Positions 19,555 to 60,437 of a stretch of 64,000 nt of DNA are shown piece by piece; positions within the stretch are counted from its first letter, which is position 1; every line of letters starts with the position of its first letter. Source of the stretch: Pyropia yezoensis (lineage: Eukaryota > Rhodophyta > Bangiophyceae > Bangiales > Bangiaceae); assembly GCA_009829735.1 (NCBI GenBank), contig CM020619.1:8856375-8920374 (forward strand), read 5' to 3'. A program made the position numbers and the translations under genes. The notes under the pieces were generated by a model. The model saw only the letters and a list, made by a program, of their open reading frames with translations. It searched no databases and was not told the DNA's origin.

Positions 19555-19833
19555 GGCCCTGCTGCGTTCTGGGGCACCCCCCCGTCCGACCGCCCCCCAC
19601 CCCCCTCGCAGTGCCTCGCACGGAGGTTCCCTCCCCGCCTCACCCCCCACCTGGAGCCGTTCTGGGGCGTGTGCCCCTCCAGCAGCCCCCCGCCCGCCTC
19701 CCAGGGCCGCGCGCGCCGGTCCCCCCCCCGCCACACCCCCCACCTGGAGCCGTTCTGGGGCGTGTGCCCCTCGCGCAGCCCCCCGCCCCCTCCCAGGGCC
19801 GAGCACGGCGGTCCCCCCCCCGCCACACGCCCT
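19555..19833 (+). repeat. About 93-bp tandem repeat, roughly three units
   Basis: Units beginning CACCTGGAGCCGTTCTGGGG start at 19648 and 19741, each followed by C-runs; a more diverged unit precedes them. The right-hand contig begins inside the end of this array, so the repeat may have ended that assembly path. Confidence 0.75.
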
Positions 19834-20211
19834 GTGGGCCCGACCGGTCAGGCAACACGGCCTGCGCCACCGCGACCCACCACTCTGACGGGGACCCCTG
19901 GCCAGGGGTCGTCGCCGTGGTGGCGTCCAGCGCTGTCCTTCCCTCCTCTTCCGTCGCGCCACGCCTGTACGTGCACCGCCTCCCTCTGCCGCGCGTGGGC
20001 CGTGCGAGTGCGCTTTTATTCTTCCTGGTTGATGAGGCGGCTGTGCAGCAGTGTGTCCTTGCGCGCTGGGTACTGACACGTCTGTGCCTCTTTTTACGTC
20101 GTGCCCATCTTTTTTTCGATGTCTTTCCGGTCTGTGTTGCGTTTTGATTGTTTGTGTGTTGTTTGTGTGTTGACTGTATTTTTTCCTAGACCTCTTAGGC
20201 AGGGAGCGCCC

Positions 20212-21987: not shown

Positions 21988-22199
21988 ATAAACCCCACGC
22001 CCTTGTTTTGTTTGCGTATTTCTCCTATTCACTTCCATCACTGCAGCGCAACAAAATTTGAGGACTCCTTGAGCCCACGTCGGTGCGGGGGGGGACGACG
22101 TGGTGTCGGTTTTCGCGGCCGCGCCTGTTGGCGAGGCGCGGCGGTGACGACAGCGCGGCTGTGGTGGCAGCCGCGGTTCTGGTTCGAACCACCGGAGAG

Positions 22200-23180
22200 G
22201 GGGACAAGGACCTGGCGGTGGCGCTTTCGGCGGCGCTGGTTGGCGCCGCCGGGGGGAGGGGGACAGGTGCCTGGCCGCCGGGTTTGCCGCGGCGTTTGTC
22301 GGTGGGGCGCTACGTGGGGGGGGACAACGACCTGGCCGCCGGGTTTGCCGCGGCGTTGGCGGTGCGGCGCTCGGGGGGGGGGGGGGGACAACGACCTGGC
22401 GTCTGCGTTTGCGGTGGCATTTGTCGGTGCGGCGCTGGGGGGTGGGGGGGGGAGAAGGACGTGGCCGCCGCGATTGCGGTGGCGTTTGTCGGTGCGGCGC
22501 CGGCAAGGGAGGAAGACAAGGACCTGGACCCCGCTTTTTCCGTGGCGCTTGCCTGTGCGGCGCTGGGGGGCGGGGGACCAGGACCTGGCCGCCGCGATTG
22601 CGGTGAAGATTGTCTGTGCGGCGCAGGGGGGGGGCAACAAGGACCTGGTCGCCACTCTTGTGGTGGCGTGTTTCTGCGCTGTGCTTGGGGGGGGGGGCAA
22701 CGGCGTGGCCGCCGCTTTTGCCTTTGTGTTTTCCTGCCCCGTGCTGGGGAGGAGGGGACAAGGACCTGGCCGCCGCTTTTGCCTGGGCGGTTTTCTGCGC
22801 CGGGATGGGGGGGGGGGCAAAGGCGTGGCCGCCGCTTTTGCCGCGGCGATTTTTCTGCGCGGAGCTGGAGGGCGGGGGGACAAGGACCTGGCCGCCGGTT
22901 TTGCCGCGCCGTTTGTCTGCGTCGGGCTGGGGGGGGGACAAGGACCTGGACGCCGCTTTTGCCGTGGCGGTTTTCTGCGCCGGGATGGGGGGGGGGGGCA
23001 AAGGCGTGCCCGCCGCTTTTTCCGCGGCGCTTTCCCGCGCCGTGCTGGGGGGGGGGGACAAGGACCTGGCCGCCGCGATTGCGGTGAAGATTGTCTGTGC
23101 GGCGCAGGGGGGGGGCAACAAGGACCTGGTCGCCGCTCTTGTGGTGGCGTTAGCCTGCGCGGCGCCGGGGAGGCTGTGAT
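22200..23180 (+). repeat. About 60-bp minisatellite, about 16 units (copy 1)
   Basis: Units centred on a GGACAAGGACCTGGCCGCCG-like core recur every 59-62 bp between the convergent transposase and SANT/Myb genes. Each unit starts with a G-run of variable length, so the frame changes from unit to unit. The GGACCTGG core alternates with variants such as GGCGTGG. Confidence 0.85.
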
Positions 23181-23681
23181 GGGATGGAGGGGATGACAAC
23201 GACAGGGAGAGTGGAGGACAACGACTTGGCGGTTTGGATGGGTGTTTGTGAGGGCCGATGGCTGCATCATCGGAGTGCACAGACACGTTGTTCCAGTGGG
23301 AAAAAAAAAACCCGGCGATGAAGCCCGGGAAAAAAAAAAGCATGACGTACGCCTACCCTACACTACGACGCAGCTTAGGCAACCACTAAAACAACTACTA
23401 CTACCACTACATCTACTGCTACTACAGCACGTACGCAAACGAGGCCGCCAGCTCAGACCGCGCAATAGCGCGCTACGACTCCTCCTCGTCCACGTCCGCG
23501 ACCCCATCCCCGTCCCCTTCCTCTTCGTCATCGTCGCCGTCGCCGTCGTCGCCCTCATCATCATCAGGGTGGCCACTCAGGACGATCGCAGCGCGCTCAA
23601 CACTGTCCTCACCATCGACGTCTGAAGCGTCGACATTGACGACGTCGAAGTCCACCTCGTCGTCCTCAGCTACATCACCCT

Positions 23682-25097
23682 CTACCGACCGCCCACTCCC
23701 ACGGCGTGCGCCCTCAGCACGTCCTCCAGCATTCGCTGCAGGTACAGGGGCGGTTCCAGAAGCAGCTCCCGCTGCAGCAGTGCGGGGGTTGTCACAGTCA
23801 GGTCCACATCCAGGGCGTCGATGGCGTCCTGGGCTTTGGCCGCTTTAGTGGCCATTGAGCGCGTCCCCCGTGAAGGTGGCCGCTCGCCCCGTCTGGGGCC
23901 AGAACTGCCAGCCGCGGTTGCACTCCCCGTGCCGGTACGCGCCGGCGTGCTGTCTGACGACGGCGCGACGACACCAGCTCCCTGACTCTCAGCGCGCTCG
24001 GCGAGGACGGTCTCCGCCGACGCCCTCCCCAGGTCCACCGCCAGCTTCAGCATCATGGAGCGGAACTCGATCCCCTCCGGCGTGCCCCTGTTCTCAGGGC
24101 GCGAGAAGAAGTCGATGGCCACCTTACGGCTCTCCAGACGGTACGCCGCCTCGGCCAGGGCTGCCTTCTTCGCCATGGAGTCCGCTACGCTCAGCATGGC
24201 CTTGTTTGATGTGTTCAGGGAGGCCTCAAATGCATCCTCCTTCTTCTCTACGTGCGCTGCGCGCTTCGCACCTTGCCGCCCCAAGGGCCGGCCTTGGAGC
24301 CCGTCGTACTCCTCCCGCTTGCGCTTGCCTTTTCCCTTGCCTTTGTCTTGGCCGCCGTCGGCGGGTGCACTCTGAGACTCAGTGTCGTAGTCCGACTCGT
24401 CCTCGTCCTCAGCATCGTCAATGAACAGGCGTTCCATCTCAGGGCTGGCGGACGCGCCGCTCCACTTGTCCATACCACGCAACACCTGCCAGCACGGTTG
24501 CCAATTCTCTGGCACGAGGCGCGCACGGCGCACCGGCGCACTCTTGCCTTCCTCCTTCAGCACCTTCTCGTAGTCCACGTCCTTCTGCTCGGCAGAGTAG
24601 GCACTCGTGGCCGTGTACAAACACCGCGCCGCGCGCAGCACAGACTCCTCGTTCATATTCCCCGTCAGGCGCGTGCTAGCAACATGGTAGAAATGCGCAA
24701 AGCGCTGGCAGCAAGGACCAATGTTGCGCTGAAACTCGTTCTTGGCCGACGTTGGAGGGCGATTACTCCACCGACCGCGCATTTCAAACGATGTCAGCTT
24801 GGGTGGCGTGCGGCGAACAAACGCGAACCAGATGCTAGACCACAGAGTGGGCGCCTGCTGGCTCGTCCCCACGCTTGCATCTTGCGTGCACTGCTTGTAC
24901 GCCTCACAAAGCGCGACGCGCTCAGGGGTAGTCCAGACCCTGCCCTTGCCAGCCTTCTTGCCATTCTTGCTTTTCCCGGGCCCACCACCACCAGCCATCA
25001 CCTCCTGCACAGAGGCGTTGTCAGGCGTCTGCGCAGCACCGGAGGGTGGCGGACCGCCATGCCTTGCCTCGCCAGCCGCAGAAGGTGAGGCACTCAC
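23682..25097 (-). CDS. SANT/Myb-like Harbinger partner protein, copy 1 (C-terminal part, frame-broken)
   Basis: This frame carries the DNA-binding domain of the second Harbinger gene: RVWTTPERVALCEAYKQCTQ and a W-rich trihelix (LWSSIWFAFV, MRGRWSNR), followed by a conserved block around MDKWSGASASPEMERLF, an acidic stretch, a Lys/Arg-rich nuclear-localisation-like stretch, and a helical region with FFSRPENRGTPEGIEF. The last about 34 residues differ from copy 2 because a G-run near 23784 is one base shorter. Upstream the frame is interrupted relative to copy 2 by an extra C near 25433. Both breaks are absent from the other copy, so sequencing or assembly error is more likely than gene decay. 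It is convergent with the transposase. Confidence 0.75.
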   Translation of the reverse strand: MSASPSAAGEARHGGPPPSGAAQTPDNASVQEVMAGGGGPGKSKNGKKAGKGRVWTTPERVALCEAYKQCTQDASVGTSQQAPTLWSSIWFAFVRRTPPKLTSFEMRGRWSNRPPTSAKNEFQRNIGPCCQRFAHFYHVASTRLTGNMNEESVLRAARCLYTATSAYSAEQKDVDYEKVLKEEGKSAPVRRARLVPENWQPCWQVLRGMDKWSGASASPEMERLFIDDAEDEDESDYDTESQSAPADGGQDKGKGKGKRKREEYDGLQGRPLGRQGAKRAAHVEKKEDAFEASLNTSNKAMLSVADSMAKKAALAEAAYRLESRKVAIDFFSRPENRGTPEGIEFRSMMLKLAVDLGRASAETVLAERAESQGAGVVAPSSDSTPARTGTGSATAAGSSGPRRGERPPSRGTRSMATKAAKAQDAIDALDVDLTVTTPALLQRELLLEPPLYLQRMLEDVLRAHAVGVGGR

Positions 25098-25407
25098 ACG
25101 CCCCGCTGCACCAGCTGCAGGGGGCGACGGACGGGCAGTCCCTTCCCGCCCAGCAGCACGGGGAGACGGAGCCGCAGGCCCGACCCCACCATCAACAGGG
25201 GGCGACGGAGCTGCACGTCCTGCCCCGCCACCACGCCGGGACCCCCCAATACAGCGGGGAGAATTAGCAGGTCCAGCCGCCGCGCTTGCGCGTCGCGCCG
25301 CTGCCGCCGCAGAGACCTCTCGGGCCCGTTCCGTGTCTTTGATCTGCTTTATGATAGCAGCCCGCGCCGCGGCTGCGCCAGCTCTCCCACTGCGCGCAAT
25401 GGCATCA

Positions 25408-27038
25408 TCAGTGACAGCCTGCCTCGCCCTCGCCAGTGCTAGCGTCTTGGGCCACTCGCTTGGCGGCCGCCGCGCGGGCTTTGTCCTCCACCTCGTCGCA
25501 CCGGGTCATAAAGTCCTGCGACGAGCCAGCAGCCAAAGGGGCGCCACTGCGTGAGCCGCTGCTCCCACCACCGCGTGTACCGTCGCGCGCGCCGCCTCCG
25601 CGCCCACTTCCGCGACCACGAGCACGACCTCGGCCAGTCACTGGTGCTTGGGCGAGTGACGGGCTTGCTGGCGTAGCAGGGGAGCCGGGGGGGGCTCGTG
25701 CACGAGCTGAGGTGGCGGCGTGGGTGACGGCGGGGGCGGGGGCGGCGGAGGGGGTGGCGCCACCAGATGAGGCGCTGGCCCTTGCGGCGGCAGCCACAAT
25801 GTTGGCTGCGTAGCTCTCGGTAGGAGATTCCATGTCGCCGGGTGGGTTGCGGGGTGCCCTCCAAAAAAAGGCTGCACCAGCGGAGGGGGCAAGGGAGGGG
25901 GTCCCGCCACGCTGGGCAGCAGCGCCCAATGAAATCCGGGCGGCGCCGCCCCGGCTGAACGCTCAGACCGGCTGCTGCTGCAGTTGCCGCAGGTTGAGGG
26001 ATTGAAGATGCGAGGCTCAGTGCAGGCGGTAGGGCAGACAGAGGTAGGCCTGGGTTGCTGGGAGGGCTCAGCGTAGTGGCTGGATGAGACCGTAGAGGCC
26101 CTGCCGTCGTCGGGGTTGGCGCCGCCACCAAGAGGGGTGGTGTCGTCTGGTGGGGAGGCGCCGCCGCCGCCCTCAGGTCCAGAGGGGTTGATGGACCGGC
26201 GGCCGGTAAATGCGTCCTCCTCCGCTGAGGACGCTCCGGACTCGCCGGCGGAGTGGGCGTCGGCCGCTTTGCAGGCGGCCGCGACTGCCTCCTCGGCTCT
26301 GTTGCGCGCGACACAGGCGACGTAGTGTCGTCGTTCCTGCTCGAGCGCCGCCTCGGCGGCGGCGACCGGCTGGAACTTCTTGCTACGCTGCGCGAGCCAC
26401 AGCCGCAGCGGCGCGCCCGGTGGCCGAACCGCGACGGCGACCGGTCCCCCAGCCCGTCCTCGAGCGCCCGAGCGGCTCGTCGATAGCGCCGCGCCTCGTG
26501 CTCCAGCTCGGACAAACGGAAGCTCAGGATATCGTCCAACGCCGGCCGCGTCACCGCGGGTGGCTTCCAGCCCGCGACTGGGGGTGACGGGGACGTCCAG
26601 CTCGCCGCCTGTGGCGGCGGATTCCAGTGCCCAGGTGGTTGTGGCACGGGGGTCCAGTTCCCCAGCCGTGGTTGAGGGGAGGTCCAGCTCCGCGGTGGCG
26701 GCTGCGCGCCGCGATACAGCGGTGGTGGCGATGGCGGGCCGTTCCGCCCGGGAGGGGGGGGCGGCTCCCTCCACCGTGGGGATGGCGGAGGAGGGCCGCC
26801 CCAGGAGGTGCGGTCCAGGCGCCGGAACGCCGTCTTGCGGATGGCCAGGGGGGGGGAGCGGGGGAGGTCGTGGATGTTGGGGAGGAAATGGGCACGGGGG
26901 CGGGGCGGGGGCGACGAAGGCCGTCTCCGGGAGTGTGGTCGAGTGGTCGGGTAGTCGCTGCCGCGCGGGTGGTCCTCCTCCCGCTGGCGACGAACGCCCA
27001 TCGTCCGACAGCATATATGTCGGTCCCGCGGGGTGCAC
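25408..27038 (-). CDS. Probable N-terminal part of the SANT/Myb-like partner, copy 1 (broken by indels)
   Basis: Pro/Ala-rich frames running into the SANT gene. They include a helical EAALEQERRHYVACVARNRA segment and the piece MESPTESYAANIVAAAARAS at about 25832. Frames jump several times at G-runs, where copy 2 has different run lengths, so no single clean reading exists in this copy. Confidence 0.4.
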
Positions 27039-27630
27039 CCGCGTACAGACTCGATGGCACTCACAGGATAGATGACGTTCTGAACGATGGGGAGGGGAGG
27101 TCGGAGTGGAGACTCACTAGACCAGCGCACAGGAAGTACGGAGCTCGTGCGCGGGGGGAGGTCGGCAGCAAGGGGGTTCCGCGACACAGCAAGAGTCTGG
27201 TAGAGTTTCTGCGACGTTGCTGCAGGGCGCCGTGGGCTATCGACGAGGGTGTCGACTCGGACTTGCTGCGAGTGGACAGGCCGGCGGGCTCCTCAACGGC
27301 GCGCGTGACCCCACTGCGTCCTGTATGCGCGACCTCTTCGCAAAGAGTCAAAGAAAGAGTCACCCGGGGGGGGGGGGGGGGGGGGGGAAAGGGGGCAACA
27401 ACGCAGCCGACCCGTACACTGTCAACGAGCCCCAAATTCGTGGGCGCGCTGGGCAGGCGGGCGCGGCCGCAACTGGACAGACGCCCCCCACCACTCGCGC
27501 TGGCCCAAGATTTTTTTGTGGCCTCGCAGGCAGAGGACGGCAAAGAGAGACGAGGTGCGCCGGATGAAACGAGGGGGTGGAGGAGAGGACACCTTTCGCT
27601 CGAGGCGCCTCTCTCCACGCCGGCCCGCCG

Positions 27631-28130
27631 NNNNNNNNNNNNNNNNNNNNNNNNNNNNNNNNNNNNNNNNNNNNNNNNNNNNNNNNNNNNNNNNNNNNNN
27701 NNNNNNNNNNNNNNNNNNNNNNNNNNNNNNNNNNNNNNNNNNNNNNNNNNNNNNNNNNNNNNNNNNNNNNNNNNNNNNNNNNNNNNNNNNNNNNNNNNNN
27801 NNNNNNNNNNNNNNNNNNNNNNNNNNNNNNNNNNNNNNNNNNNNNNNNNNNNNNNNNNNNNNNNNNNNNNNNNNNNNNNNNNNNNNNNNNNNNNNNNNNN
27901 NNNNNNNNNNNNNNNNNNNNNNNNNNNNNNNNNNNNNNNNNNNNNNNNNNNNNNNNNNNNNNNNNNNNNNNNNNNNNNNNNNNNNNNNNNNNNNNNNNNN
28001 NNNNNNNNNNNNNNNNNNNNNNNNNNNNNNNNNNNNNNNNNNNNNNNNNNNNNNNNNNNNNNNNNNNNNNNNNNNNNNNNNNNNNNNNNNNNNNNNNNNN
28101 NNNNNNNNNNNNNNNNNNNNNNNNNNNNNN
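27631..28130. other. Assembly gap, exactly 500 N
   Basis: A round-number run of N, probably a nominal gap rather than a measured distance. Both flanks are copies of the same transposon interior. Confidence 0.99.
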
Positions 28131-28524
28131 CCCCCGCACACGCCCTGTGGGCCCGACCGGTCAGGCAACACGGCCTGCGCCACCGCGACCCACCACTCTG
28201 ACGGGGACCCCTGGCCAGGGGTCGTCGCCGTGGTGGCGTCCAGCGCTGTCCTTCCCTCCTCTTCCGTCGCGCCACGCCTGTACGTGCACCGCCTCCCTCT
28301 GCCGCGCGTGGGCCGTGCGAGTGCGCTTTTATTCTTCCTGGTTGATGAGGCGGCTGTGCAGCAGTGTGTCCTTGCGCGCTGGGTACTGACACGTCTGTGC
28401 CTCTTTTTACGTCGTGCCCATCTTTTTTTCGATGTCTTTCCGGTCTGTGTTGCGTTTTGATTGTTTGTGTGTTGTTTGTGTGTTGACTGTATTTTTTCCT
28501 AGACCTCTTAGGCAGGGAGCGCCC

Positions 28525-30300
28525 ATGGACTCAGACGATGACGAGGACGCTATCGTCGCCCTCGCCACCCACCGACACATGACCACACTGCGCTTGCTAC
28601 ATCTGCGCGTCTTGAGGTCGCGCATTTATCGCAGGCACCGGGGCTCCATCCCCGGCCGGCGCGGCAACAAACGTCGCGACTTTTCTGATGCGGTGCGGCG
28701 CATACGCGAGCATTACTTTGGATTGGACGGGCAGGAGCCCGTGTACGATGAGAAGGACTTCGAGCGGCGCTTCCGTGTGCCGCGTATTGTCTTCTCCCGT
28801 ATCTACAACGCCATCAAGACTGAGCCCTGGTGGCAGCAGCGACCAAACGCCACCGGCCGGCCACAAGCCCACCCTCTGCAAAAGCTTATTGGCGCCTTTC
28901 GTGTTCTTGCATATGGGGAGTGCATGGACCGCGGCGACGAGTATGTCGCGTTGAGCAAGACGACGATCTCCTTGGCAACCAATCGGCTGGTGGCCTTTAT
29001 TCTGCGCACATACCAGGACGAGTACTTGCGGGCGCCGACCTTGGAGGACCTGAGGCGCATCATGCGTCGCAACGCTGAGAGGGGCCTGCCAGGATGTATT
29101 GGCAGTCTGGACTGCTCCCACTGGGAGTGGAGCACATGCCCCACTGCACACGCCGGCATGTACCAGGACCGGCACGGGAAGCGCACGGTCGTGCTGGAGA
29201 CCGTCTGTGATGAAGACATGTGGATCTGGCACATCTACGCCGGGGCACCTGGCAGCAATAATGACCTCAATGTGCTTGCGCACAGCCCGCTCATGACCAA
29301 GGTGACCCAGGGGCGTTGGCCCCCGTCTGGGCTGTCTTTTTCTGTGAATGGGACCCGCTTTCGCATGCCTTATTACCTCGTGGACGGGATATACCCGCGC
29401 TATGCTTTCCTCATGTCGCCGCATGCAGAGCCCTCCACTGACAAAGAGCGTGCTTTTAACCGCCTGCAAGAGGCGTTACGGAAGGACGTTGAGCGTCTCT
29501 ACGCCGTACTGACGCGCCGCTTTAATGTAGCTCTGTACCCTGCCCGTGCCCACTCTGTGTCTAACCTCATCTGTACCGCCAAGGCGATTGCCATTTTGCA
29601 CAACATGGTTACTGAGCAGCGCCGTGATAGGTACGTGTCGCGCTCTCGCCCAGGGTATGGACAGGGAGGACCAGATGTAGGGGAAGGTGAGGGCACGGAG
29701 AGCGGCGATGGAGGAGATGGCGGCGGAAGCATTGATGGAGCAGACGGCGGTGGAAGCGGCTCTGGAGGTGGCCGACATGACGGAGCCGCCCCACAGTCTC
29801 AACGCGGTGGAGGACGTGCAGACGGTGGCGATAGAGGTGCAGCTGTAATTGCAGGTGCGCCGGGTGGAGTTGGGGAAGAACCGGGTGGAGTGGAAGAGGG
29901 AGTGGGTGGCGTGGCAGGGGGAGCGGATGAAGTGGGAGGGGGTGGCGGCGGTGGGGGTGCATCTGGAGGTGGTGGGAGAGGGGGTGGCAGCGGTGGGGGT
30001 GGTGGGGGTGCACCTGGAGGTGGGGGGGGAATGGGTAGCAGCGGCGGGGGTGCCCCCGGAGGTGGAGAGGCAGCTGATGGAGGGGGAGGGGGCGGGGTCG
30101 GCGGTGCTGGGGCACTCGGGGTCGGAGCCGGACCGGGTCCAGCGCACACCCCGGCCGGCGATCCGGCGGAGGGGTTGTTGCTCCAGGTGCTCATGTCCTG
30201 GTCCAACGCAACGGACAGGGACGTGCATGCGGCGCTGAAGGGCTGCCTCACCGAGCACGTCTGGCAGCACCGCGACCGCTTCCTCCATCCCTATCAGTAG
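28525..30300 (+). CDS. PIF/Harbinger transposase, copy 2
   Basis: Same 591-residue DDE protein as the gene at 20212-21987, with no amino-acid difference that I can find, including the low-complexity tail. Such identity over a G-rich tail argues for one locus assembled twice rather than an old duplication. Confidence 0.93.
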   Translation: MDSDDDEDAIVALATHRHMTTLRLLHLRVLRSRIYRRHRGSIPGRRGNKRRDFSDAVRRIREHYFGLDGQEPVYDEKDFERRFRVPRIVFSRIYNAIKTEPWWQQRPNATGRPQAHPLQKLIGAFRVLAYGECMDRGDEYVALSKTTISLATNRLVAFILRTYQDEYLRAPTLEDLRRIMRRNAERGLPGCIGSLDCSHWEWSTCPTAHAGMYQDRHGKRTVVLETVCDEDMWIWHIYAGAPGSNNDLNVLAHSPLMTKVTQGRWPPSGLSFSVNGTRFRMPYYLVDGIYPRYAFLMSPHAEPSTDKERAFNRLQEALRKDVERLYAVLTRRFNVALYPARAHSVSNLICTAKAIAILHNMVTEQRRDRYVSRSRPGYGQGGPDVGEGEGTESGDGGDGGGSIDGADGGGSGSGGGRHDGAAPQSQRGGGRADGGDRGAAVIAGAPGGVGEEPGGVEEGVGGVAGGADEVGGGGGGGGASGGGGRGGGSGGGGGGAPGGGGGMGSSGGGAPGGGEAADGGGGGGVGGAGALGVGAGPGPAHTPAGDPAEGLLLQVLMSWSNATDRDVHAALKGCLTEHVWQHRDRFLHPYQ

Positions 30301-30512
30301 ATAAACCCCACGCCCTTGTTTTGTTTGCGTATTTCTCCTATTCACTTCCATCACTGCAGCGCAACAAAATTTGAGGACTCCTTGAGCCCACGTCGGTGCG
30401 GGGGGGGACGACGTGGTGTCGGTTTTCGCGGCCGCGCCTGTTGGCGAGGCGCGGCGGTGACGACAGCGCGGCTGTGGTGGCAGCCGCGGTTCTGGTTCGA
30501 ACCACCGGAGAG

Positions 30513-31490
30513 GGGGACAAGGACCTGGCGGTGGCGCTTTCGGCGGCGCTGGTTGGCGCCGCCGGGGGGAGGGGGACAGGTGCCTGGCCGCCGGGTTTGC
30601 CGCGGCGTTTGTCGGTGGGGCGCTACGTGGGGGGGGGACAACGACCTGGCCGCCGGGTTTGCCGCGGCGTTGGCGGTGCGGCGCTCGGGGGGGGGGGGGG
30701 ACAACGACCTGGCGTCTGCGTTTGCGGTGGCATTTGTCGGTGCGGCGCTGGGGGGTGGGGGGGGAGAAGGACGTGGCCGCCGCGATTGCGGTGGCGTTTG
30801 TCGGTGCGGCGCCGGCAAGGGAGGAAGACAAGGACCTGGACCCCGCTTTTTCCGTGGCGCTTGCCTGTGCGGCGCTGGGGGGCGGGGGACCAGGACCTGG
30901 CCGCCGCGATTGCGGTGAAGATTGTCTGTGCGGCGCAGGGGGGGGGCAACAAGGACCTGGTCGCCACTCTTGTGGTGGCGTGTTTCTGCGCTGTGCTTGG
31001 GGGGGGGGGCAACGGCGTGGCCGCCGCTTTTGCCTTTGTGTTTTCCTGCCCCGTGCTGGGGAGGAGGGGACAAGGACCTGGCCGCCGCTTTTGCCTGGGC
31101 GGTTTTCTGCGCCGGGATGGGGGGGGGGGCAAAGGCGTGGCCGCCGCTTTTGCCGCGGCGATTTTTCTGCGCGGAGCTGGAGGGCGGGGGGACAAGGACC
31201 TGGCCGCCGGTTTTGCCGCGCCGTTTGTCTGCGTCGGGCTGGGGGGGGGGACAAGGACCTGGACGCCGCTTTTGCCGTGGCGGTTTTCTGCGCCGGGATG
31301 GGGGGGGGGGCAAAGGCGTGCCCGCCGCTTTTTCCGCGGCGCTTTCCCGCGCCGTGCTGGGGGGGGGGACAAGGACCTGGCCGCCGCGATTGCGGTGAAG
31401 ATTGTCTGTGCGGCGCAGGGGGGGGGCAACAAGGACCTGGTCGCCGCTCTTGTGGTGGCGTTAGCCTGCGCGGCGCCGGGGAGGCTGTGA
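30513..31490 (+). repeat. About 60-bp minisatellite, about 16 units (copy 2)
   Basis: Same array as 22200-23180, differing by a few single G in the homopolymer at the start of units. Confidence 0.85.
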
Positions 31491-31783
31491 TGGGATGGAG
31501 GGGATGACAACGACAGGGAGAGTGGAGGACAACGACTTGGCGGTTTGGATGGGTGTTTGTGAGGGCCGATGGCTGCATCATCGGAGTGCACAGACACGTT
31601 GTTCCAGTGGGAAAAAAAAAACCCGGCGATGAAGCCCGGGAAAAAAAAAAGCATGACGTACGCCTACCCTACACTACGACGCAGCTTAGGCAACCACTAA
31701 AACAACTACTACTACCACTACATCTACTGCTACTACAGCACGTACGCAAACGAGGCCGCCAGCTCAGACCGCGCAATAGCGCG

Positions 31784-34174
31784 CTACGACTCCTCCTCGT
31801 CCACGTCCGCGACCCCATCCCCGTCCCCTTCCTCTTCGTCATCGTCGCCGTCGCCGTCGTCGCCCTCATCATCATCAGGGTGGCCACTCAGGACGATCGC
31901 AGCGCGCTCAACACTGTCCTCACCATCGACGTCTGAAGCGTCGACATTGACGACGTCGAAGTCCACCTCGTCGTCCTCAGCTACATCACCCTCTACCGAC
32001 CGCCCACTCCCACGGCGTGCGCCCTCAGCACGTCCTCCAGCATTCGCTGCAGGTACAGGGGCGGTTCCAGAAGCAGCTCCCGCTGCAGCAGTGCGGGGGG
32101 TTGTCACAGTCAGGTCCACATCCAGGGCGTCGATGGCGTCCTGGGCTTTGGCCGCTTTAGTGGCCATTGAGCGCGTCCCCCGTGAAGGTGGCCGCTCGCC
32201 CCGTCTGGGGCCAGAACTGCCAGCCGCGGTTGCACTCCCCGTGCCGGTACGCGCCGGCGTGCTGTCTGACGACGGCGCGACGACACCAGCTCCCTGACTC
32301 TCAGCGCGCTCGGCGAGGACGGTCTCCGCCGACGCCCTCCCCAGGTCCACCGCCAGCTTCAGCATCATGGAGCGGAACTCGATCCCCTCCGGCGTGCCCC
32401 TGTTCTCAGGGCGCGAGAAGAAGTCGATGGCCACCTTACGGCTCTCCAGACGGTACGCCGCCTCGGCCAGGGCTGCCTTCTTCGCCATGGAGTCCGCTAC
32501 GCTCAGCATGGCCTTGTTTGATGTGTTCAGGGAGGCCTCAAATGCATCCTCCTTCTTCTCTACGTGCGCTGCGCGCTTCGCACCTTGCCGCCCCAAGGGC
32601 CGGCCTTGGAGCCCGTCGTACTCCTCCCGCTTGCGCTTGCCTTTTCCCTTGCCTTTGTCTTGGCCGCCGTCGGCGGGTGCACTCTGAGACTCAGTGTCGT
32701 AGTCCGACTCGTCCTCGTCCTCAGCATCGTCAATGAACAGGCGTTCCATCTCAGGGCTGGCGGACGCGCCGCTCCACTTGTCCATACCACGCAACACCTG
32801 CCAGCACGGTTGCCAATTCTCTGGCACGAGGCGCGCACGGCGCACCGGCGCACTCTTGCCTTCCTCCTTCAGCACCTTCTCGTAGTCCACGTCCTTCTGC
32901 TCGGCAGAGTAGGCACTCGTGGCCGTGTACAAACACCGCGCCGCGCGCAGCACAGACTCCTCGTTCATATTCCCCGTCAGGCGCGTGCTAGCAACATGGT
33001 AGAAATGCGCAAAGCGCTGGCAGCAAGGACCAATGTTGCGCTGAAACTCGTTCTTGGCCGACGTTGGAGGGCGATTACTCCACCGACCGCGCATTTCAAA
33101 CGATGTCAGCTTGGGTGGCGTGCGGCGAACAAACGCGAACCAGATGCTAGACCACAGAGTGGGCGCCTGCTGGCTCGTCCCCACGCTTGCATCTTGCGTG
33201 CACTGCTTGTACGCCTCACAAAGCGCGACGCGCTCAGGGGTAGTCCAGACCCTGCCCTTGCCAGCCTTCTTGCCATTCTTGCTTTTCCCGGGCCCACCAC
33301 CACCAGCCATCACCTCCTGCACAGAGGCGTTGTCAGGCGTCTGCGCAGCACCGGAGGGTGGCGGACCGCCATGCCTTGCCTCGCCAGCCGCAGAAGGTGA
33401 GGCACTCACACGCCCCGCTGCACCAGCTGCAGGGGGCGACGGACGGGCAGTCCCTTCCCGCCCAGCAGCACGGGGAGACGGAGCCGCAGGCCCGACCCCA
33501 CCATCAACAGGGGGCGACGGAGCTGCACGTCCTGCCCCGCCACCACGCCGGGACCCCCCAATACAGCGGGGAGAATTAGCAGGTCCAGCCGCCGCGCTTG
33601 CGCGTCGCGCCGCTGCCGCCGCAGAGACCTCTCGGGCCCGTTCCGTGTCTTTGATCTGCTTTATGATAGCAGCCCGCGCCGCGGCTGCGCCAGCTCTCCC
33701 ACTGCGCGCAATGGCATCATCAGTGACAGCCTGCCTCGCCCTCGCAGTGCTAGCGTCTTGGGCCACTCGCTTGGCGGCCGCCGCGCGGGCTTTGTCCTCC
33801 ACCTCGTCGCACCGGGTCATAAAGTCCTGCGACGAGCCAGCAGCCAAAGGGGCGCCACTGCGTGAGCCGCTGCTCCCACCACCGCGTGTACCGTCGCGCG
33901 CGCCGCCTCCGCGCCCACTTCCGCGACCACGAGCACGACCTCGGCCAGTCACTGGTGCTTGGGCGAGTGACGGGCTTGCTGGCGTAGCAGGGGAGCCGGG
34001 GGGGGCTCGTGCACGAGCTGAGGTGGCGGCGTGGGTGACGGCGGGGGCGGGGGCGGCGGAGGGGTGGCGCCACCAGATGAGGCGCTGGCCCTTGCGGCGG
34101 CAGCCACAATGTTGGCTGCGTAGCTCTCGGTAGGAGATTCCATGTCGCCGGGTGGGTTGCGGGGTGCCCTCCAA
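31784..34174 (-). CDS. SANT/Myb-like Harbinger partner protein, copy 2 (longest open frame)
   Basis: A 796-residue frame. Order: Arg/Gly-rich basic region; a helical segment (DEVEDKARAAAAKRVAQDAS); a Pro/Ala-rich linker; the SANT/Myb-like trihelix from GRVWTTPERVALCEAYKQ; a Lys-rich nuclear-localisation-like stretch; a helical C-terminal domain; and an extremely acidic tail (DDDEGDDGDGDDDEEEGDGD) absent from copy 1. Its first about 40 residues are probably out of frame. Copy 1 reads MESPTESYAANIVAAAARAS at this place, and the two copies differ in a G/GGC run near 34050. In PIF/Harbinger elements this protein binds DNA and brings the transposase to the nucleus and to the element ends. Confidence 0.8.
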   Translation of the reverse strand: MEGTPQPTRRHGISYRELRSQHCGCRRKGQRLIWWRHPSAAPAPAVTHAATSARARAPPGSPATPASPSLAQAPVTGRGRARGRGSGRGGGARDGTRGGGSSGSRSGAPLAAGSSQDFMTRCDEVEDKARAAAAKRVAQDASTARARQAVTDDAIARSGRAGAAAARAAIIKQIKDTERAREVSAAAAARRASAAAGPANSPRCIGGSRRGGGAGRAAPSPPVDGGVGPAAPSPRAAGREGTARPSPPAAGAAGRVSASPSAAGEARHGGPPPSGAAQTPDNASVQEVMAGGGGPGKSKNGKKAGKGRVWTTPERVALCEAYKQCTQDASVGTSQQAPTLWSSIWFAFVRRTPPKLTSFEMRGRWSNRPPTSAKNEFQRNIGPCCQRFAHFYHVASTRLTGNMNEESVLRAARCLYTATSAYSAEQKDVDYEKVLKEEGKSAPVRRARLVPENWQPCWQVLRGMDKWSGASASPEMERLFIDDAEDEDESDYDTESQSAPADGGQDKGKGKGKRKREEYDGLQGRPLGRQGAKRAAHVEKKEDAFEASLNTSNKAMLSVADSMAKKAALAEAAYRLESRKVAIDFFSRPENRGTPEGIEFRSMMLKLAVDLGRASAETVLAERAESQGAGVVAPSSDSTPARTGTGSATAAGSSGPRRGERPPSRGTRSMATKAAKAQDAIDALDVDLTVTTPRTAAAGAASGTAPVPAANAGGRAEGARRGSGRSVEGDVAEDDEVDFDVVNVDASDVDGEDSVERAAIVLSGHPDDDEGDDGDGDDDEEEGDGDGVADVDEEES

Positions 34175-35352
34175 AAAAAGGCTGCACCAGCGGAGGGGGC
34201 AAGGGAGGGGGTCCCGCCACGCTGGGCAGCAGCGCCCAATGAAATCCGGGCGGCGCCGCCCCGGCTTGAACGCTCAGACCGGCTGCTGCTGCAGTTGCCG
34301 CAGGTTGAGGGATTGAAGATGCGAGGCTCAGTGCAGGCGGTAGGGCAGACAGAGGTAGGCCTGGGTTGCTGGGAGGGCTCAGCGTAGTGGCTGGATGAGA
34401 CCGTAGAGGCCCTGCCGTCGTCGGGGTTGGCGCCGCCACCAAGAGGGGTGGTGTCGTCTGGTGGGGAGGCGCCGCCGCCGCCCTCAGGTCCAGAGGGGTT
34501 GATGGACCGGCGGCCGGTAAATGCGTCCTCCTCCGCTGAGGACGCTCCGGACTCGCCGGCGGAGTGGGCGTCGGCCGCTTTGCAGGCGGCCGCGACTGCC
34601 TCCTCGGCTCTGTTGCGCGCGACACAGGCGACGTAGTGTCGTCGTTCCTGCTCGAGCGCCGCCTCGGCGGCGGCGACCGGCTGGAACTTCTTGCTACGCT
34701 GCGCGAGCCACAGCCGCAGCGGCGCGCCCGGTGGCCGAACCGCGACGGCGACCGGTCCCCCAGCCCGTCCTCGAGCGCCCGAGCGGCTCGTCGATAGCGC
34801 CGCGCCTCGTGCTCCAGCTCGGACAAACGGAAGCTCAGGATATCGTCCAACGCCGGCCGCGTCACCGCGGGTGGCTTCCAGCCCGCGACTGGGGGTGACG
34901 GGGACGTCCAGCTCGCCGCCTGTGGCGGCGGATTCCAGTGCCCAGGTGGTTGTGGCACGGGGGTCCAGTTCCCCAGCCGTGGTTGAGGGGAGGTCCAGCT
35001 CCGCGGTGGCGGCTGCGCGCCGCGATACAGCGGTGGTGGCGATGGCGGGCCGTTCCGCCCGGGAGGGGGGGGCGGCTCCCTCCACCGTGGGGATGGCGGA
35101 GGAGGGCCGCCCCAAGGAGGTGGCGGTCCAGGCGCCGGAACGCCGTCTTGCGGATGGCCAGGGGGGGGGAGCGGGGGAGGTCGTGGATGTTGGGGAGGAA
35201 ATGGGCACGGGGGCGGGGGCGGGGGCGACGAAGGCCGTCTCCGGGAGTGTGGTCGAGTGGTCGGGTAGTCGCTGCCGCGCGGGTGGTCCTCCTCCCGCTG
35301 GCGACGAACGCCCATCGTCCGACAGCATATATGTCGGTCCCGCGGGGTGCAC
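33949..35352 (-). CDS. Probable N-terminal part of the SANT/Myb-like partner, copy 2
   Basis: This 467-residue frame overlaps the previous gene in another phase. It contains the helical segment with EQERRHYVACVARNRAEE and continues through MESPTESYAANIVAAAARAS, which copy 1 places in frame with the SANT part. The natural protein may therefore be about 1,150-1,200 residues, starting near 35352. Alternatively translation starts at MESPTES and the upstream Pro-rich frame is non-coding. Confidence 0.45.
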   Translation of the reverse strand: MHPAGPTYMLSDDGRSSPAGGGPPARQRLPDHSTTLPETAFVAPAPAPVPISSPTSTTSPAPPPWPSARRRSGAWTATSLGRPSSAIPTVEGAAPPSRAERPAIATTAVSRRAAATAELDLPSTTAGELDPRATTTWALESAATGGELDVPVTPSRGLEATRGDAAGVGRYPELPFVRAGARGAALSTSRSGARGRAGGPVAVAVRPPGAPLRLWLAQRSKKFQPVAAAEAALEQERRHYVACVARNRAEEAVAAACKAADAHSAGESGASSAEEDAFTGRRSINPSGPEGGGGASPPDDTTPLGGGANPDDGRASTVSSSHYAEPSQQPRPTSVCPTACTEPRIFNPSTCGNCSSSRSERSSRGGAARISLGAAAQRGGTPSLAPSAGAAFFWRAPRNPPGDMESPTESYAANIVAAAARASASSGGATPPPPPPPPSPTPPPQLVHEPPPAPLLRQQARHSPKHQ

Positions 35353-37241
35353 CCGCGTACAGACTCGATGGCACTCACAGGATAGATGACGTTCTGAACG
35401 ATGGGGAGGGGAGGTCGGAGTGGAGACTCACTAGACCAGCGCACAGGAAGTACGGAGCTCGTGCGCGGGGGAGAGGTCGGCAGCAAGGGGGTTCCGCGAC
35501 ACAGCAAGAGTCTGGTAGAGTTTCTGCGACGTTGCTGCAGGGCGCCGTGGGCTATCGACGAGGGTGTCGACTCGGACTTGCTGCGAGTGGACAGGCCGGC
35601 GGGCTCCTCAACGGCGCGCGTGACCCCACTGCGTCCTGTATGCGCGACCTCTTCGCAAAGAGTCAAAGAAAGAGTCACCCGGGGGGGGGGGGGGGGGGGG
35701 GGGGAAAGGGGGCAACAACGCAGCCGACCCGTACACTGTCAACGAGCCCCCAAATTCGTGGGCGCGCTGGGCAGGCGGGCGCGGCCGCAACTGGACAGAC
35801 GCCCCCCACCACTCGCGCTGGCCCAAGATTTTTTTGTGGCCTCGCAGGCAGAGGACGGCAAAGAGACGAGGTGCGCCGGATGAAACGAGGGGGTGGAGGA
35901 GAGGACACCTTTCGCTCGAGGCGCCTCTCTCCACGCCGGCCCGCCGCGCAACGTACTCGCGCCGGCATCGGATGGCCTGGGAGGACGGGAGGGGAACGGG
36001 TGGTGAGAAGTCTATCTCGGCGGCCCAAGTGATTGGGTGGGCGGGTGCTCGCTGGGGAGGGGGCGGCCGAGGGTCCTGCGACGGGTGTCCTTTTTTAGAA
36101 AAAATGATCTGGCGACTCGCAGACTAGTGACGCGGGCCAAGTCACGCGCGTGGATGAGAATCCGAACGGCGGGCGCCGGCAAAGCCCATGCTGCCGCCCG
36201 GTGCATGCGGCGGGGGAGTCGGGGGTGAAGAGAGAAGCGAACCATGGCAGCCGCGGCGCGTCTGCCTCTCAGGGTGGCACCCCGGTGGCACCTCGTGCGA
36301 GGGGGTGCGCGTGTGTGGATGATGAACGTAGGTCCCTCTGCAGTCTTGTTGCAACAATGGGGCTGCATGCCGCGGCATGCTCCACGAAAATCTCGCACGG
36401 AGGGGTACGGCGGGTAGCACCTCAACAGCCTAGACGGGTTGGTCCACCACCGCCTACACCGCAAGCACAAAAAAAAACACCAAAAATATCAAACCCAACG
36501 CGCCCAAATTGCAATGGCAAGCTCCAATCGACCGATAACTCTCAGGATCTGCCGCAAACTGTCTTCGAAATGTACAGTTCTGCTCAAAGACAGCTCCCAA
36601 TTCAACCAGTTCGCTTTTGATGGACCTCGAATGCACCACCACTCCATCGTGTGGCCCACACCGCACGACCTCTGGCGATCTCAGAGACGCTCCACCAGGC
36701 CCATACACTGGAAATTTTGCAGGTGTCATGTGCATGGATGTCATGCCGACAACGTTGAGCCCTCCATTGGCGACCACAAGGCGTTGTGTGCACGTGTCCC
36801 AGGAAGGCAACAGATATGCGAGTTATACACAGCCCGCCAAGGCTGCACTCGGTGCATAACCTTCAGATTATTGTTGATTCTGTGAGAGCCGTCCGATAAT
36901 CCAAGTCATGGCTGTGCTGTTGGAGCGATACAAGTGGGCATCGGAGAGGCCTGTGGGACGGATTTGGGCGTCTCTCAGTGCCTGGCCGGTTGAGTTTCGG
37001 TCAAAAGACAGAGTTTTGGTCATCGCTTCATTGCTTCTGCGTGGAGGGCCACGAAGCGCGGACGAGACCGCTGGAAGGCGAAGATGTCGTGTTTTGGGCA
37101 TGTAGCCCATGTCTGGACCTCAAGTACATTGCGGTCAAGAGCACCCCCGATAGTCCAGGTACTATCGCGATAGCCGCACCAATGAGATGCTCGCACGTGG
37201 CACACGTGGCGTTCTAAAATGACCATTTCAGACCTTTAGTC
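35353..37241. other. Right non-coding flank of the Harbinger element
   Basis: No gene seen. It holds a long G-run (about 35681-35704), an A-rich stretch near 36470, and CACGTG-containing sequence at 37195-37212 that resembles the left flank (18725-18750). Confidence 0.5.
37149..37166. repeat. Subterminal GATAGTC palindrome (right side of Harbinger)
   Basis: GATAGTCCAGGTACTATC lies about 95 bp inside the right end. It shares GATAGTCC and ACTATC with the left subterminal palindrome. Confidence 0.6.
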
Positions 37242-41986: not shown

Positions 41987-44092
41987 TTAGTAGGCGGCCC
42001 GGCCCGCCAGGAAGGACGGCACCGCCGCCCACCCGCCAATGGTTGGCAGCCACCGCCCGCCCACCACCCCCCCCCACCCGACCGCCGCGGCGGCGCGGGC
42101 GGGCGCCAGCGCCGCCGCCGCCACCGCCGGCGCAACGGCCGTGGTGTAGACGGACGTGAGGAAGCCGTCCACCACCACCGTCCCCGGTGCAGTGTGGGGG
42201 GCGTACAGGCCCCCCGCGACGGCCGCCGCCGCCAGCCGCACCCGCGTGACGGGCGTCCACACGCCGCCCGCAGCGCCAGCGGGGGTGGCGGGCATGGCGC
42301 TACAGTTGGGGGCCACGCCCCCCCGCGCACCAGCATGCCCGGCCAACGGCGGCAGGTGCAGCAGCGCGTCGCCGACGGCCACGGCGGCGGCAGCAACGAG
42401 GCGGCCGGCCGTCGCAGCGCAGCGGTGCCCACCGCCGGCCAGTCCCGCGGCGGGCCGGCCGGCACACCCCGCGGGCGCGACGGGCACGTAGTGGCCGGCC
42501 GACAGGCGCAGGGCGCCCACGGCGGTGGAGAGCGTCACGTACGCGGCCACCCCGGCGGGGTCGGCGTGGGAAAAGGCGTAGACGGGGGCCACCGCGCCGG
42601 CCGCCGCCGCCGCGGTCGCCGCCACACCAGCGGCGCCGCCGCCGTCCCCCCCACCGCCGGTGCGGACCACGTCCCCGACGCGGAGGGCGTCCATGCGGCG
42701 GGTGCCGCCCCCCGCCAGCTGCACCGTTGCGTCGGCCGGGAAGCACTCGGCGACGGTGCCGCCGGCCGTGGGGACAACGTCCGCATCGGAAACGCCGTCC
42801 CTGTCGTCGTCCGATTGAGCGCCAGCGCGGCCGTCCGCCTCGGTGGGGGGGGAGGCGGCGGCCGGCTGTGCGACTGCCGTGGAGCGCATCCCAGCGTGCA
42901 CGTACAGGCAGTCATCCAGGCGGAGCACCCGCTGGCCGTCGAGGATCCCAAACAGCAGCGTGTCGTCGAACGTTAGCGTCACCGGCCCACACCGCAGGTC
43001 GAGATTGACGGGGGCGTACACGAGGGACGGATCCCGCCGCTGCCACGCCATGACGGAGGGCTGGTCCGACGCCTCCCACGCAAGGGCGTTGCCCCAGCAC
43101 GCTACGAAATACACGTTCGCATTACCGCGTGCGGCGCACGCCACGCCGTCCATGACAACGTCGGTTGTGCGGATGTCGACCATCCAGTCCCCATAGGGGG
43201 AGCTGGTGGTGGCGACAGAAATGGACGTGGCGCGGCAGACCCCGCGGCTGCGGTTGCGGTCGAGGACGTAGGCGCCGCCGGTGGTCAGCGCGGTGCCCGC
43301 TACGGCCCTCCCGTTGCGGGGCACGTCTGGAGAGGGGGAGGGGGACGCGGACACGCGCGGCGAGCCAGCGCCGGTGCGGTCCCCGGCAGGCGGTCGCGCG
43401 GCGGACGCGGTGTGCACGTACGTGCACCCGTTGATGCGCAGCAGGGGGTCCCCCCCCTCGCGTCCCACATAGACCGCCTGCCCCGCCGGCAGTGTCAGCC
43501 GGCCACAGGTCAACGAGGCATAGGCCCAAAACACCACCACGTTGGCATCCCGCTCGGCCTGCCACTCCAGCACCTCTGCGGCGTCGGCATCCGGCAGGTA
43601 GGCGTTGCGGAGCTCCTCCCGCAGGGCGGCGCCAAAGCACCCGTCAAGGACGTTGTCGTTGATGATGTCCGTGTCGGCCTCTGCGCTGCACGGGGTGCCG
43701 TCAACGACAATGTCGGGGGCGTTGACGCGGACCATCCCCGCCGGGTCGGTCACGCGCGCCGCCCGGATGGTCACCGCCGTGGCGGCCGCCGCGCAGGCGG
43801 TGGCGTTGCGGCTGCGGGACGCGTCCAGCGTGTACGCGCCGCCGGTGAGGATGGAGGTGCCGGCCACTTGGCGGCGGGCGGCGGCGGGGAGGGTGTCGCC
43901 GACGCGCCGCGGCGCGTCGGCCCGGGGGGGCGGGGGGGGGGGGGGGGCGACGCCGACGACGGCGGCGGGCGCGCCCACCGCCAGGACCGTCGCCGTCGCG
44001 GCTGCCGCCACGGCGGCGGCGGCGGGCAGCCAGGTGTGCCGTCGGGCGCCGCGGCGGTGGGCGCCGGCGGGCGCCACTCGCGGGGCGTTCAT
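41987..44092 (-). CDS. Secreted/membrane protein with two ectodomain repeats and C-terminal Hint (Hog-type) domain
   Basis: A 701-residue protein from the ATG at 44092; the frame is open further upstream, but that part is low complexity. Residues 20-50 are a hydrophobic signal peptide or anchor. Two homologous units of about 150 residues follow (about 74-235 and 255-410), each with GG-AY-LD-(N)RSR near the start, a VDG/MDGV-C motif and a C-terminal C-YVH. After a linker the Hint domain begins at Cys450 (ECFPADATVQL), with LRVGDVV, FSHADP, LSAGHYVPVA (His of the active-site motif), LYAPHTAPGTVVVDGFLTSVY and a hydrophobic tail. By homology Hint domains cleave the chain at the initiating Cys through a thioester, releasing the N-terminal part. 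Cys and His are kept; the usual Thr before His is Ser, and the SCY motif reads SVY, so activity is likely but untested. Confidence 0.85.
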   Translation of the reverse strand: MNAPRVAPAGAHRRGARRHTWLPAAAAVAAAATATVLAVGAPAAVVGVAPPPPPPPRADAPRRVGDTLPAAARRQVAGTSILTGGAYTLDASRSRNATACAAAATAVTIRAARVTDPAGMVRVNAPDIVVDGTPCSAEADTDIINDNVLDGCFGAALREELRNAYLPDADAAEVLEWQAERDANVVVFWAYASLTCGRLTLPAGQAVYVGREGGDPLLRINGCTYVHTASAARPPAGDRTGAGSPRVSASPSPSPDVPRNGRAVAGTALTTGGAYVLDRNRSRGVCRATSISVATTSSPYGDWMVDIRTTDVVMDGVACAARGNANVYFVACWGNALAWEASDQPSVMAWQRRDPSLVYAPVNLDLRCGPVTLTFDDTLLFGILDGQRVLRLDDCLYVHAGMRSTAVAQPAAASPPTEADGRAGAQSDDDRDGVSDADVVPTAGGTVAECFPADATVQLAGGGTRRMDALRVGDVVRTGGGGDGGGAAGVAATAAAAAGAVAPVYAFSHADPAGVAAYVTLSTAVGALRLSAGHYVPVAPAGCAGRPAAGLAGGGHRCAATAGRLVAAAAVAVGDALLHLPPLAGHAGARGGVAPNCSAMPATPAGAAGGVWTPVTRVRLAAAAVAGGLYAPHTAPGTVVVDGFLTSVYTTAVAPAVAAAALAPARAAAAVGWGGVVGGRWLPTIGGWAAVPSFLAGRAAY

Positions 44093-44730
44093 TGCAAAAG
44101 GGGGCGGGGCAGGGGCGCGGGGGAGCGGGGGGGGGGGGAAGGGGCGGATGACCCGTCCGACCGGGACAAGGGATAAGGGGGGTGCGGGAAGCCCACAGGG
44201 GAGCAGCCGAGCCCCACAGACCCACAGACTAGCGTGGGGAACAAGGGGGGGGGGGGGGGGGGGGTGGGGCGTGGCTGGACGGCGGCCCGGAGAAGAGGCA
44301 AAGTCGACAATAGTACGGCAGCGGCGTCCGCGTCGCCGGCCTGCGCAAGCCGTCGGCGGCAGTGGCCCAGATGGCTGACCGACGTGCCGCCGGTGCACAG
44401 GAGGGGGGGGGGCAGCCGCTCTTGTAGCCACACCGCCAGACCCGCTCCTCCCCTGGAGCGACCGCCCCGCCGCTGCGGCTCCAGGCGTGACGGACGGGGC
44501 AGAGGGGGGGGACGGGGCGAGGCGAGCGCTTCCCGCCCCCCTCCCCCCCCCCCCGCCCCCCCCACCACGGCACCCGTCCCTCCCCGCTGCGATACCCCCT
44601 GTGCGGCAACGCCAGGCAGCCCATCTCCGCCCTCCCCCCCCCCCCCCCCCCCCACCCCCTCCCCCGGGCACGCCGGTGTTTGGGGGGGAAATGACGTCGA
44701 CGCCGGCCGGCGACGCCACCGGCGCGCGGC

Positions 44731-44782
44731 AGCAGCGGCAGCGGCAGCGGCAGCGGCAGCAGCGGCAGCGGCAGCAGCGGCC
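44731..44782 (+). repeat. CAGCGG microsatellite
   Basis: About eight units of CAGCGG/CAGCAG in tandem. Confidence 0.85.
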
Positions 44783-45008
44783 GGGGCGACAGCGTCCTTG
44801 CTGGCCACCGCCGCCAACGCGGCACCGTCCTCGTCATCCGGGGCCATTGGCGCGTTGGCTGGTTCTGAGTCCTCCGCCCCCCCCCCCCCCCCCCCCCCCC
44901 ATCCCCTATCCCCCACTGCCCGTTTCCCAAGGACCCCTGCCTTCTCCACCACTCCCGCCGCGGCCGCGGGGGGGCGGCGGTCGGCGCAGCAGCCGCGTGC
45001 CGCGCGTT

Positions 45009-60286: not shown

Positions 60287-60380
60287 GGCCCCGTGGCGTA
60301 ATGGATAATTAAGCGTAGCTAACACCGAACGCGTTCGTTTCCGATGCGAAAGATTCAGGGTTCGAGTCCCTGCGGGGTCG
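60287..60380 (+). tRNA. tRNA-Arg(CCG) with a 21-nt insert in the D-arm
   Basis: Acceptor GGCCCCG (60287-60293) pairs with CGGGGTC (60373-60379), discriminator G60380. Anticodon stem TTCGT/GCGAA (60334-60338, 60346-60350), loop TTCCGAT with anticodon CCG at 60341-60343. T-arm CAGGG-TTCGAGT-CCCTG (60356-60372). D-stem GCGT (60296-60299) pairs with ACGC (60329-60332) only if 60308-60328 is removed; the remaining D-loop AATGGATA is canonical and the mature length is 73 nt. GCGT inside the insert (60313-60316) can pair with the same ACGC strand, as in a bulge-helix-bulge intron, though a complete motif is not evident. TTTT at 60391 is a Pol III terminator. It decodes CGG, a codon expected to be common in such GC-rich genes. 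Confidence 0.9.
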
Positions 60381-60437
60381 GGGCGCGATGTTTTGCACCA
60401 TACCTGATGCTTTGGCGGTGTTGTTTGAGGGTGAGTA

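Follow-up and report, generated by a model that had tools for sequence, protein, structure and literature searches.

The D-loop of a tRNA-Arg(CCG) gene in the 64,000-nt stretch of Pyropia yezoensis DNA analyzed here (hereafter the window) is 21 nt too long, and its sequence leads us to regard the locus, with moderate confidence, as a working nuclear tRNA-Arg(CCG) gene that carries a 21-nt ectopic D-loop intron. The gene would be transcribed by Pol III through its internal A and B boxes; the tRNA splicing endonuclease, or a comparable activity, would excise the insert at 20a/21, 21/22 or 22/23, and ligation of the two exons would give a 73-nt tRNA predicted to read CGG. We favor this reading because the stems are paired, ARAGORN recognizes the spliced form, the tertiary bases are compatible, homologues leave a 21-nt gap at the insert and the boxes are perfect, and further because of the CGG usage in the window, the D-arm introns of Cyanidioschyzon merolae and the noncanonical inserts of the Guillardia nucleomorph. 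Counted against it are the lack of a canonical four-pair bulge-helix-bulge (BHB) motif at sites that keep the D-loop GG, minimum-energy folds that are not cloverleaves, a decayed tRNA-like neighbor and the view, stated in a review, that short D- and T-arm insertions mark supposed pseudogenes. The identity of the gene, the position of the insert and its intron-like reading are supported; the interpretation as a whole is partly supported.

Anatomy of the interrupted gene

The gene occupies positions 60287-60380 on the forward strand, in agreement with the coordinates and letters of the first-pass annotation, and all four of its stems are paired when checked from fixed offsets. The acceptor stem (GGCCCCG/CGGGGTC) forms seven pairs, including one G-U; the D-stem (GCGT/ACGC) forms four; the anticodon stem (TTCGT/GCGAA) forms five, including one U-G; and the T-stem (CAGGG/CCCTG) forms five. 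The sole abnormality is the D-loop, with 29 nt between the D-stem strands versus the usual 8 or so. A canonical eukaryotic intron at 37/38 is absent, the anticodon loop TTCCGAT having its normal 7 nt with CCG as the anticodon, and the gene is not permuted (3′ half before 5′ half), as its halves stand in normal order.

On the forward strand, the 5′ exon (60287-60307), which aligns to three tRNA-Arg genes described below, comprises the acceptor 5′ strand (60287-60293), U8, G9, the D-stem strand GCGU (60296-60299) and the D-loop portion AAUGGAUA. The insert ATTAAGCGTAGCTAACACCGA (60308-60328, forward strand), delimited by sliding the deletion and by the gap against homologues, is the candidate ectopic intron. 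Within it lies a GCGT (60313-60316, forward strand) whose pairing with 60329-60332 could replace that of the exon strand 60296-60299. The 3′ exon (60329-60380, forward strand) supplies the D-stem 3′ strand ACGC (60329-60332), the anticodon arm (60334-60350, with CCG at 60341-60343), the variable loop (60351-60355), the T-arm (60356-60372), the acceptor 3′ strand (60373-60379) and the discriminator G73 (60380).

Once 21 nt are removed, 73 nt remain, which ARAGORN identifies as tRNA-Arg(ccg); the unspliced gene is returned as tRNA-??? (aaca). Thus, with one segment taken out the tRNA is complete and has the expected isotype, and that segment lies outside 37/38, in the D-loop at 20a/21 to 22/23. 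The cuts 60307-60327, 60308-60328 and 60309-60329 give an identical product, so the junction is ambiguous by two bases. It had been proposed beforehand that removing 60308-60328 restores a standard 73-nt tRNA-Arg(CCG), and ARAGORN, the stems and the homologue alignment all uphold this. Rfam gave no match for the locus at cut-off, its tRNA model scoring 28.4 bits against the 29 required; this model takes the GCGT of the insert as a D-stem strand.

The accompanying proposal that the D-stem forms only if the insert is removed had to be abandoned. The two D-stem strands already stand at their proper offsets and pair across the insert (−26.2 kcal/mol, compared to −22.8 kcal/mol without that pairing), so the locus can equally be described as having a 29-nt D-loop. 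This continued pairing is what speaks for a transcript that keeps the insert, that is, a tRNA-like RNA with a 29-nt D-loop serving in translation or as some other small RNA. We consider such retention very improbable: the GCGU of the insert is a slightly better partner for ACGC (−26.9 kcal/mol) and competes with the exon strand for the D-stem, and we know of no nuclear tRNA with a 29-nt D-loop.

We assessed the locus against chance with a strict cloverleaf scan that required fully paired acceptor, anticodon and T stems (G-U allowed), at least three D-stem pairs, and U8, A14, GG, U33 and TTCRA, with an enlarged D-loop permitted. Over both strands of the window, the scan returned the tRNA-Arg(CCG) locus as its single match, and it returned 0 matches in 16,643 Markov-resampled sequences (63.5 kb and ~15.5 kb, alternating).

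Homologues for comparison came from a search of genome contigs, which produced four matches; a single one, in L005, is a tRNA-Arg and was useful. ARAGORN sees no tRNA in contigs L002 and L004, and the match in L003 falls outside both of that contig's tRNAs. In viral contigs, the spliced D-arm had 0 matches, and a match with a 10-40 nt gap occurred in L001 only, where ARAGORN finds no tRNA and which we take as chance. The useful contig, L005 (positions 1-8000, labeled Maritimibacter MAG NZVC01000054.1), carries 45 tRNA genes, distributed over both strands of its 8 kb. Several of their anticodons have A34, typical of eukaryotes, from which we infer that L005 is eukaryotic DNA in a bacterial bin, very probably a contaminant in a bacterial MAG from a reference collection.

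The comparison set consists of three intact L005 genes that ARAGORN names Arg(TCT), Arg(TCG) and Arg(CCT). Aligned with them by MAFFT, the window gene shows a single 21-nt gap, drawn at 60307-60327, and no other. When all 21-nt deletions were tried, this being the only length that fits 73-nt homologues, the top identity (55/73, to Arg(TCT)) was obtained at starts 60307, 60308 and 60309, with 54 as the next best; the spliced form matches Arg(TCG) and Arg(CCT) at 50/73 and 49/73 positions, respectively. The D-arm GTGGCGTAATGGATAACGCGTT of the L005 Arg(TCT) gene is the D-arm of the spliced window gene, without the insert. The homologue gap and the deletion identities mean that the insert is placed by sequence and not by folding.

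Signs of function and of decay

Both internal promoter elements are intact, with 0 mismatches to the consensus: the A box TGGCGTAATGG (60294-60304, forward strand), which lies upstream of the insert, and the B box GGTTCGAGTCC (60359-60369, forward strand). When mismatches are tolerated, chance often produces box pairs (on average 2.4 in each random window); with a perfect B box and no more than one mismatch in the A box, the average is 0.07. A short TTTT (60391-60394, forward strand), a possible Pol III terminator, starts 11 nt past the last base of the gene.

After removal of the insert, the tertiary contacts we checked are all compatible: 8-14-21, 9-12-23 (G-G-C), 10-25-45, 13-22-46 (U-A-A), 15-48 (A-U), 18-55, 19-56, 26-44 and 54-58, where the list of pairs follows tRNA numbering and the letters were read from the sequence. 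A20 and G73, which are usual for Arg tRNAs, are both present. Apart from the insert, no lesion was found in the stems, boxes or checked tertiary positions, although a very recent pseudogene would look alike.

Such a recently disrupted pseudogene, in which one tRNA-Arg(CCG) copy among several has received a 21-nt insertion in its D-loop and no later changes have yet accumulated, is the main alternative, with a lower but appreciable probability. According to a review, short D- and T-arm insertions in eukaryotic tRNA genes mostly affect one of many synonymous genes and are usually taken as pseudogenes, and a decayed tRNA-like locus lies ~2.4 kb from the window gene. Yet the stems, boxes and checked tertiary positions carry no further damage. 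Within 6 mismatches of 21, the window contains no second copy of the insert, whose edges share just a two-base AA repeat; together these leave no obvious mobile-element signature.

In the decayed neighbor (62787-62729, reverse strand), the A box TTGCCTAGTGG and the B box GGTTCGATTCC are both perfect, their starts are 48 nt apart, and a T run begins 17 nt after the B box. We rejected this locus as a second disrupted tRNA: removing any one segment of at most 11 nt from the stretch between U8 and the T-loop fails to recover both its D and anticodon stems, and its three 7-bp acceptor candidates are displaced, the one with the right 3′ spacing having its 5′ side 10 nt off and, by eye, an unpaired T-stem. 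Its sequence may represent a tRNA-derived SINE head or a decayed tRNA and may illustrate local decay.

The working-gene reading also agrees with codon usage. Within the Prp8 frame of the window, arginine is encoded most often by CGG (95/231 codons over 2719-11454, intein included), so some tRNA must read CGG; this codon is readable by anticodon CCG, or by UCG through wobble. Prp8 is a single open frame (2719-11457, forward strand) of 2912 residues with no stops, and its PDB matches are Prp8 chains. Inside it, at 7534-8796 (forward strand), lies a Hint-type intein of 421 residues, its ends set by motif, which sits after the residue matching human 1506 and of which Pfam recognizes the first 73 residues; a 2006 paper describes Prp8 inteins as then known from fungi only. 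Elsewhere in the window, a 948-residue ORF (41987-44833, reverse strand) contains a hedgehog-type Hint module (Pfam Hint) and is of the kind of the Hog-domain ORFs reported for Porphyra in PMC2362128. The GC content of the window runs from 0.55 to 0.73 per 4-kb block; two reports give 63.6% (PMC3594237) and 70.06% (PMC8752119) for Bangiales. Judged by these features, a GC-rich, compact, intron-poor nuclear genome of a Porphyra-like Bangiales alga would be a compatible source, although the comparison yielded no direct sequence match.

A direct repeat (about 19818-27387 and 28131-35702) has copies 8.31 kb apart that are 96-100% identical in nine listed blocks, with a 500-N gap (27631-28130) between them. 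The first copy encodes a Harbinger-like transposase (Plant_tran/DDE_Tnp_4), together with an ORF whose NAM-associated match falls below the Pfam cut-off. The whole region, 19818-35702, is either a tandem repeat or an assembly duplication. The gap and the 8.3-kb near-identical repeat indicate an imperfect assembly, which lends the idea that the insert is an assembly or sequencing artifact what weight it has. We give that idea very little credence: both features end over 24 kb from the tRNA locus, and read errors do not usually take the form of a clean 21-nt insertion between perfect flanks.

Folding and the bulge-helix-bulge motif

The canonical motif was defined as a central helix of 4 bp flanked on each side by a 3-nt bulge that holds the cut site. 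With these bulges, no more than 2 of the 4 central pairs form at any of the three equivalent cuts, so a canonical BHB is unsupported in the precursor, and this absence counts in favor of a pseudogene. Letting bulge size and cut point vary at the equivalent cuts, 4 of 48 choices give three pairs, with no flanking pairs. When the GG is kept and the loop has 8-12 nt, three pairs form in 24 of 368 choices and four in none. Canonical bulges account for 23 of these choices, and two of them reach three pairs, both with shifted cuts (60305-60323 or 60307-60324 removed) that leave a loop of 11-12 nt. Removal of 60305-60323 with canonical bulges gives three central, one outer and two inner pairs, the best result in that geometry; we keep this cut as a less favored candidate, which would produce a 75-nt tRNA with an 11-nt loop unlike those of the homologues. 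Full four-pair helices, among the matches listed from 2,304 choices, require removal from 60301 or 60302 to 60318, and we rejected these cuts because the D-loop GG is lost.

Partial motifs mean little, since random inserts tested in the canonical geometry often reach three or four pairs (8,277 of 20,000, the other 11,723 giving one or two), which makes the test for a relaxed BHB a weak one. With relaxed bulges or shifted cuts, three of four pairs are possible at the locus, no better than chance.

The first-pass annotation had further noted that the GCGT of the insert can pair with the D-stem 3′ strand as in a BHB. The pairing itself stands (GCGU 60313-60316 with ACGC 60329-60332), and GCGT is present in 2.3% of shuffled inserts; the likeness to a BHB does not. 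In BHB geometry, the upstream exon pairs with the 3′ part of the intron. Here, the 5′ part of the insert is joined to the downstream exon, so the topology is wrong for the motif.

Minimum-energy folding does not return the cloverleaf for either form. For the spliced molecule, the minimum is −29.6 kcal/mol compared to −28.3 kcal/mol for the cloverleaf; for the precursor, it is −31.9 kcal/mol compared to −26.9 kcal/mol for the better of its cloverleaf-like forms. The stability of the precursor is unremarkable (z −1.41): 17 of 200 shuffles fold as well.

Relation to known disrupted tRNA genes

The literature comparisons draw on PMC3978253, PMC9602550, PMC4090602, PMC4033280, PMC8450103, PMC8752119, PMC3594237, PMC2362128, PMC13353863, PMC1635734 and PMC5880011. 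In the reviews consulted, ectopic introns in eukaryotic tRNAs are reported from few lineages, and among the matches listed by word searches of open-licence PMC, none showed an ectopic intron in a tRNA gene of Porphyra, Pyropia or any other mesophilic red alga. The eukaryotic splicing endonuclease is thought to measure the mature domain and thereby arrive at 37/38, so every new ectopic case tests this model. The account of tRNAscan-SE 2.0 consulted describes its noncanonical intron search for archaeal candidates, which suggests an annotation blind spot: eukaryotic genes with noncanonical tRNA introns may be dropped or called pseudogenes.

A mesophilic red algal case would suggest a trait dating from the early red algae and would offer another test organism. 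Going further, we offer only as a tentative and rather doubtful extension that the gene is perhaps the sole source of a CGG-reading tRNA, that its D-loop intron, which has no full canonical BHB, is spliced independently of the motif and that red algae inherited ectopic tRNA splicing from their common ancestor. If true, such splicing would not be peculiar to a hot-spring alga or to nucleomorphs.

The nucleomorph of Guillardia theta is of red-algal ancestry. Reviews report that its tRNA genes contain inserts of 3-24 nt at noncanonical places, with excision confirmed by RT-PCR. Like the inserts described there (Kawach et al. 2005, as cited in reviews), which include D- and T-arm positions and in many cases have no defined BHB, the window insert interrupts the D-arm; unlike them, it is known from sequence and belongs to a nuclear gene, whereas theirs belong to the reduced genome of an endosymbiont and have excision confirmed. 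The position of the insert is also of the kind seen in the D/T-arm-insertion tRNA pseudogenes that a review describes in other eukaryotes, but the window gene differs from these in showing no other decay.

For C. merolae, reviews and PMC9602550 give a D-arm intron at 12/13 in tRNA-Ile and a D-loop site, 20/21, that serves as a permutation junction, bearing out the first-pass statement that D-arm ectopic introns are known in this alga. The C. merolae sites are described as forming various BHB motifs, whereas the window gene has no full canonical BHB, and upstream TATA boxes have been proposed for C. merolae tRNA genes in a review, whereas both internal boxes are intact here. What the window gene shares with C. 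merolae (Soma et al. 2007, 2013, as cited in those texts) is a small intron-like D-arm insert in an otherwise complete nuclear tRNA gene.
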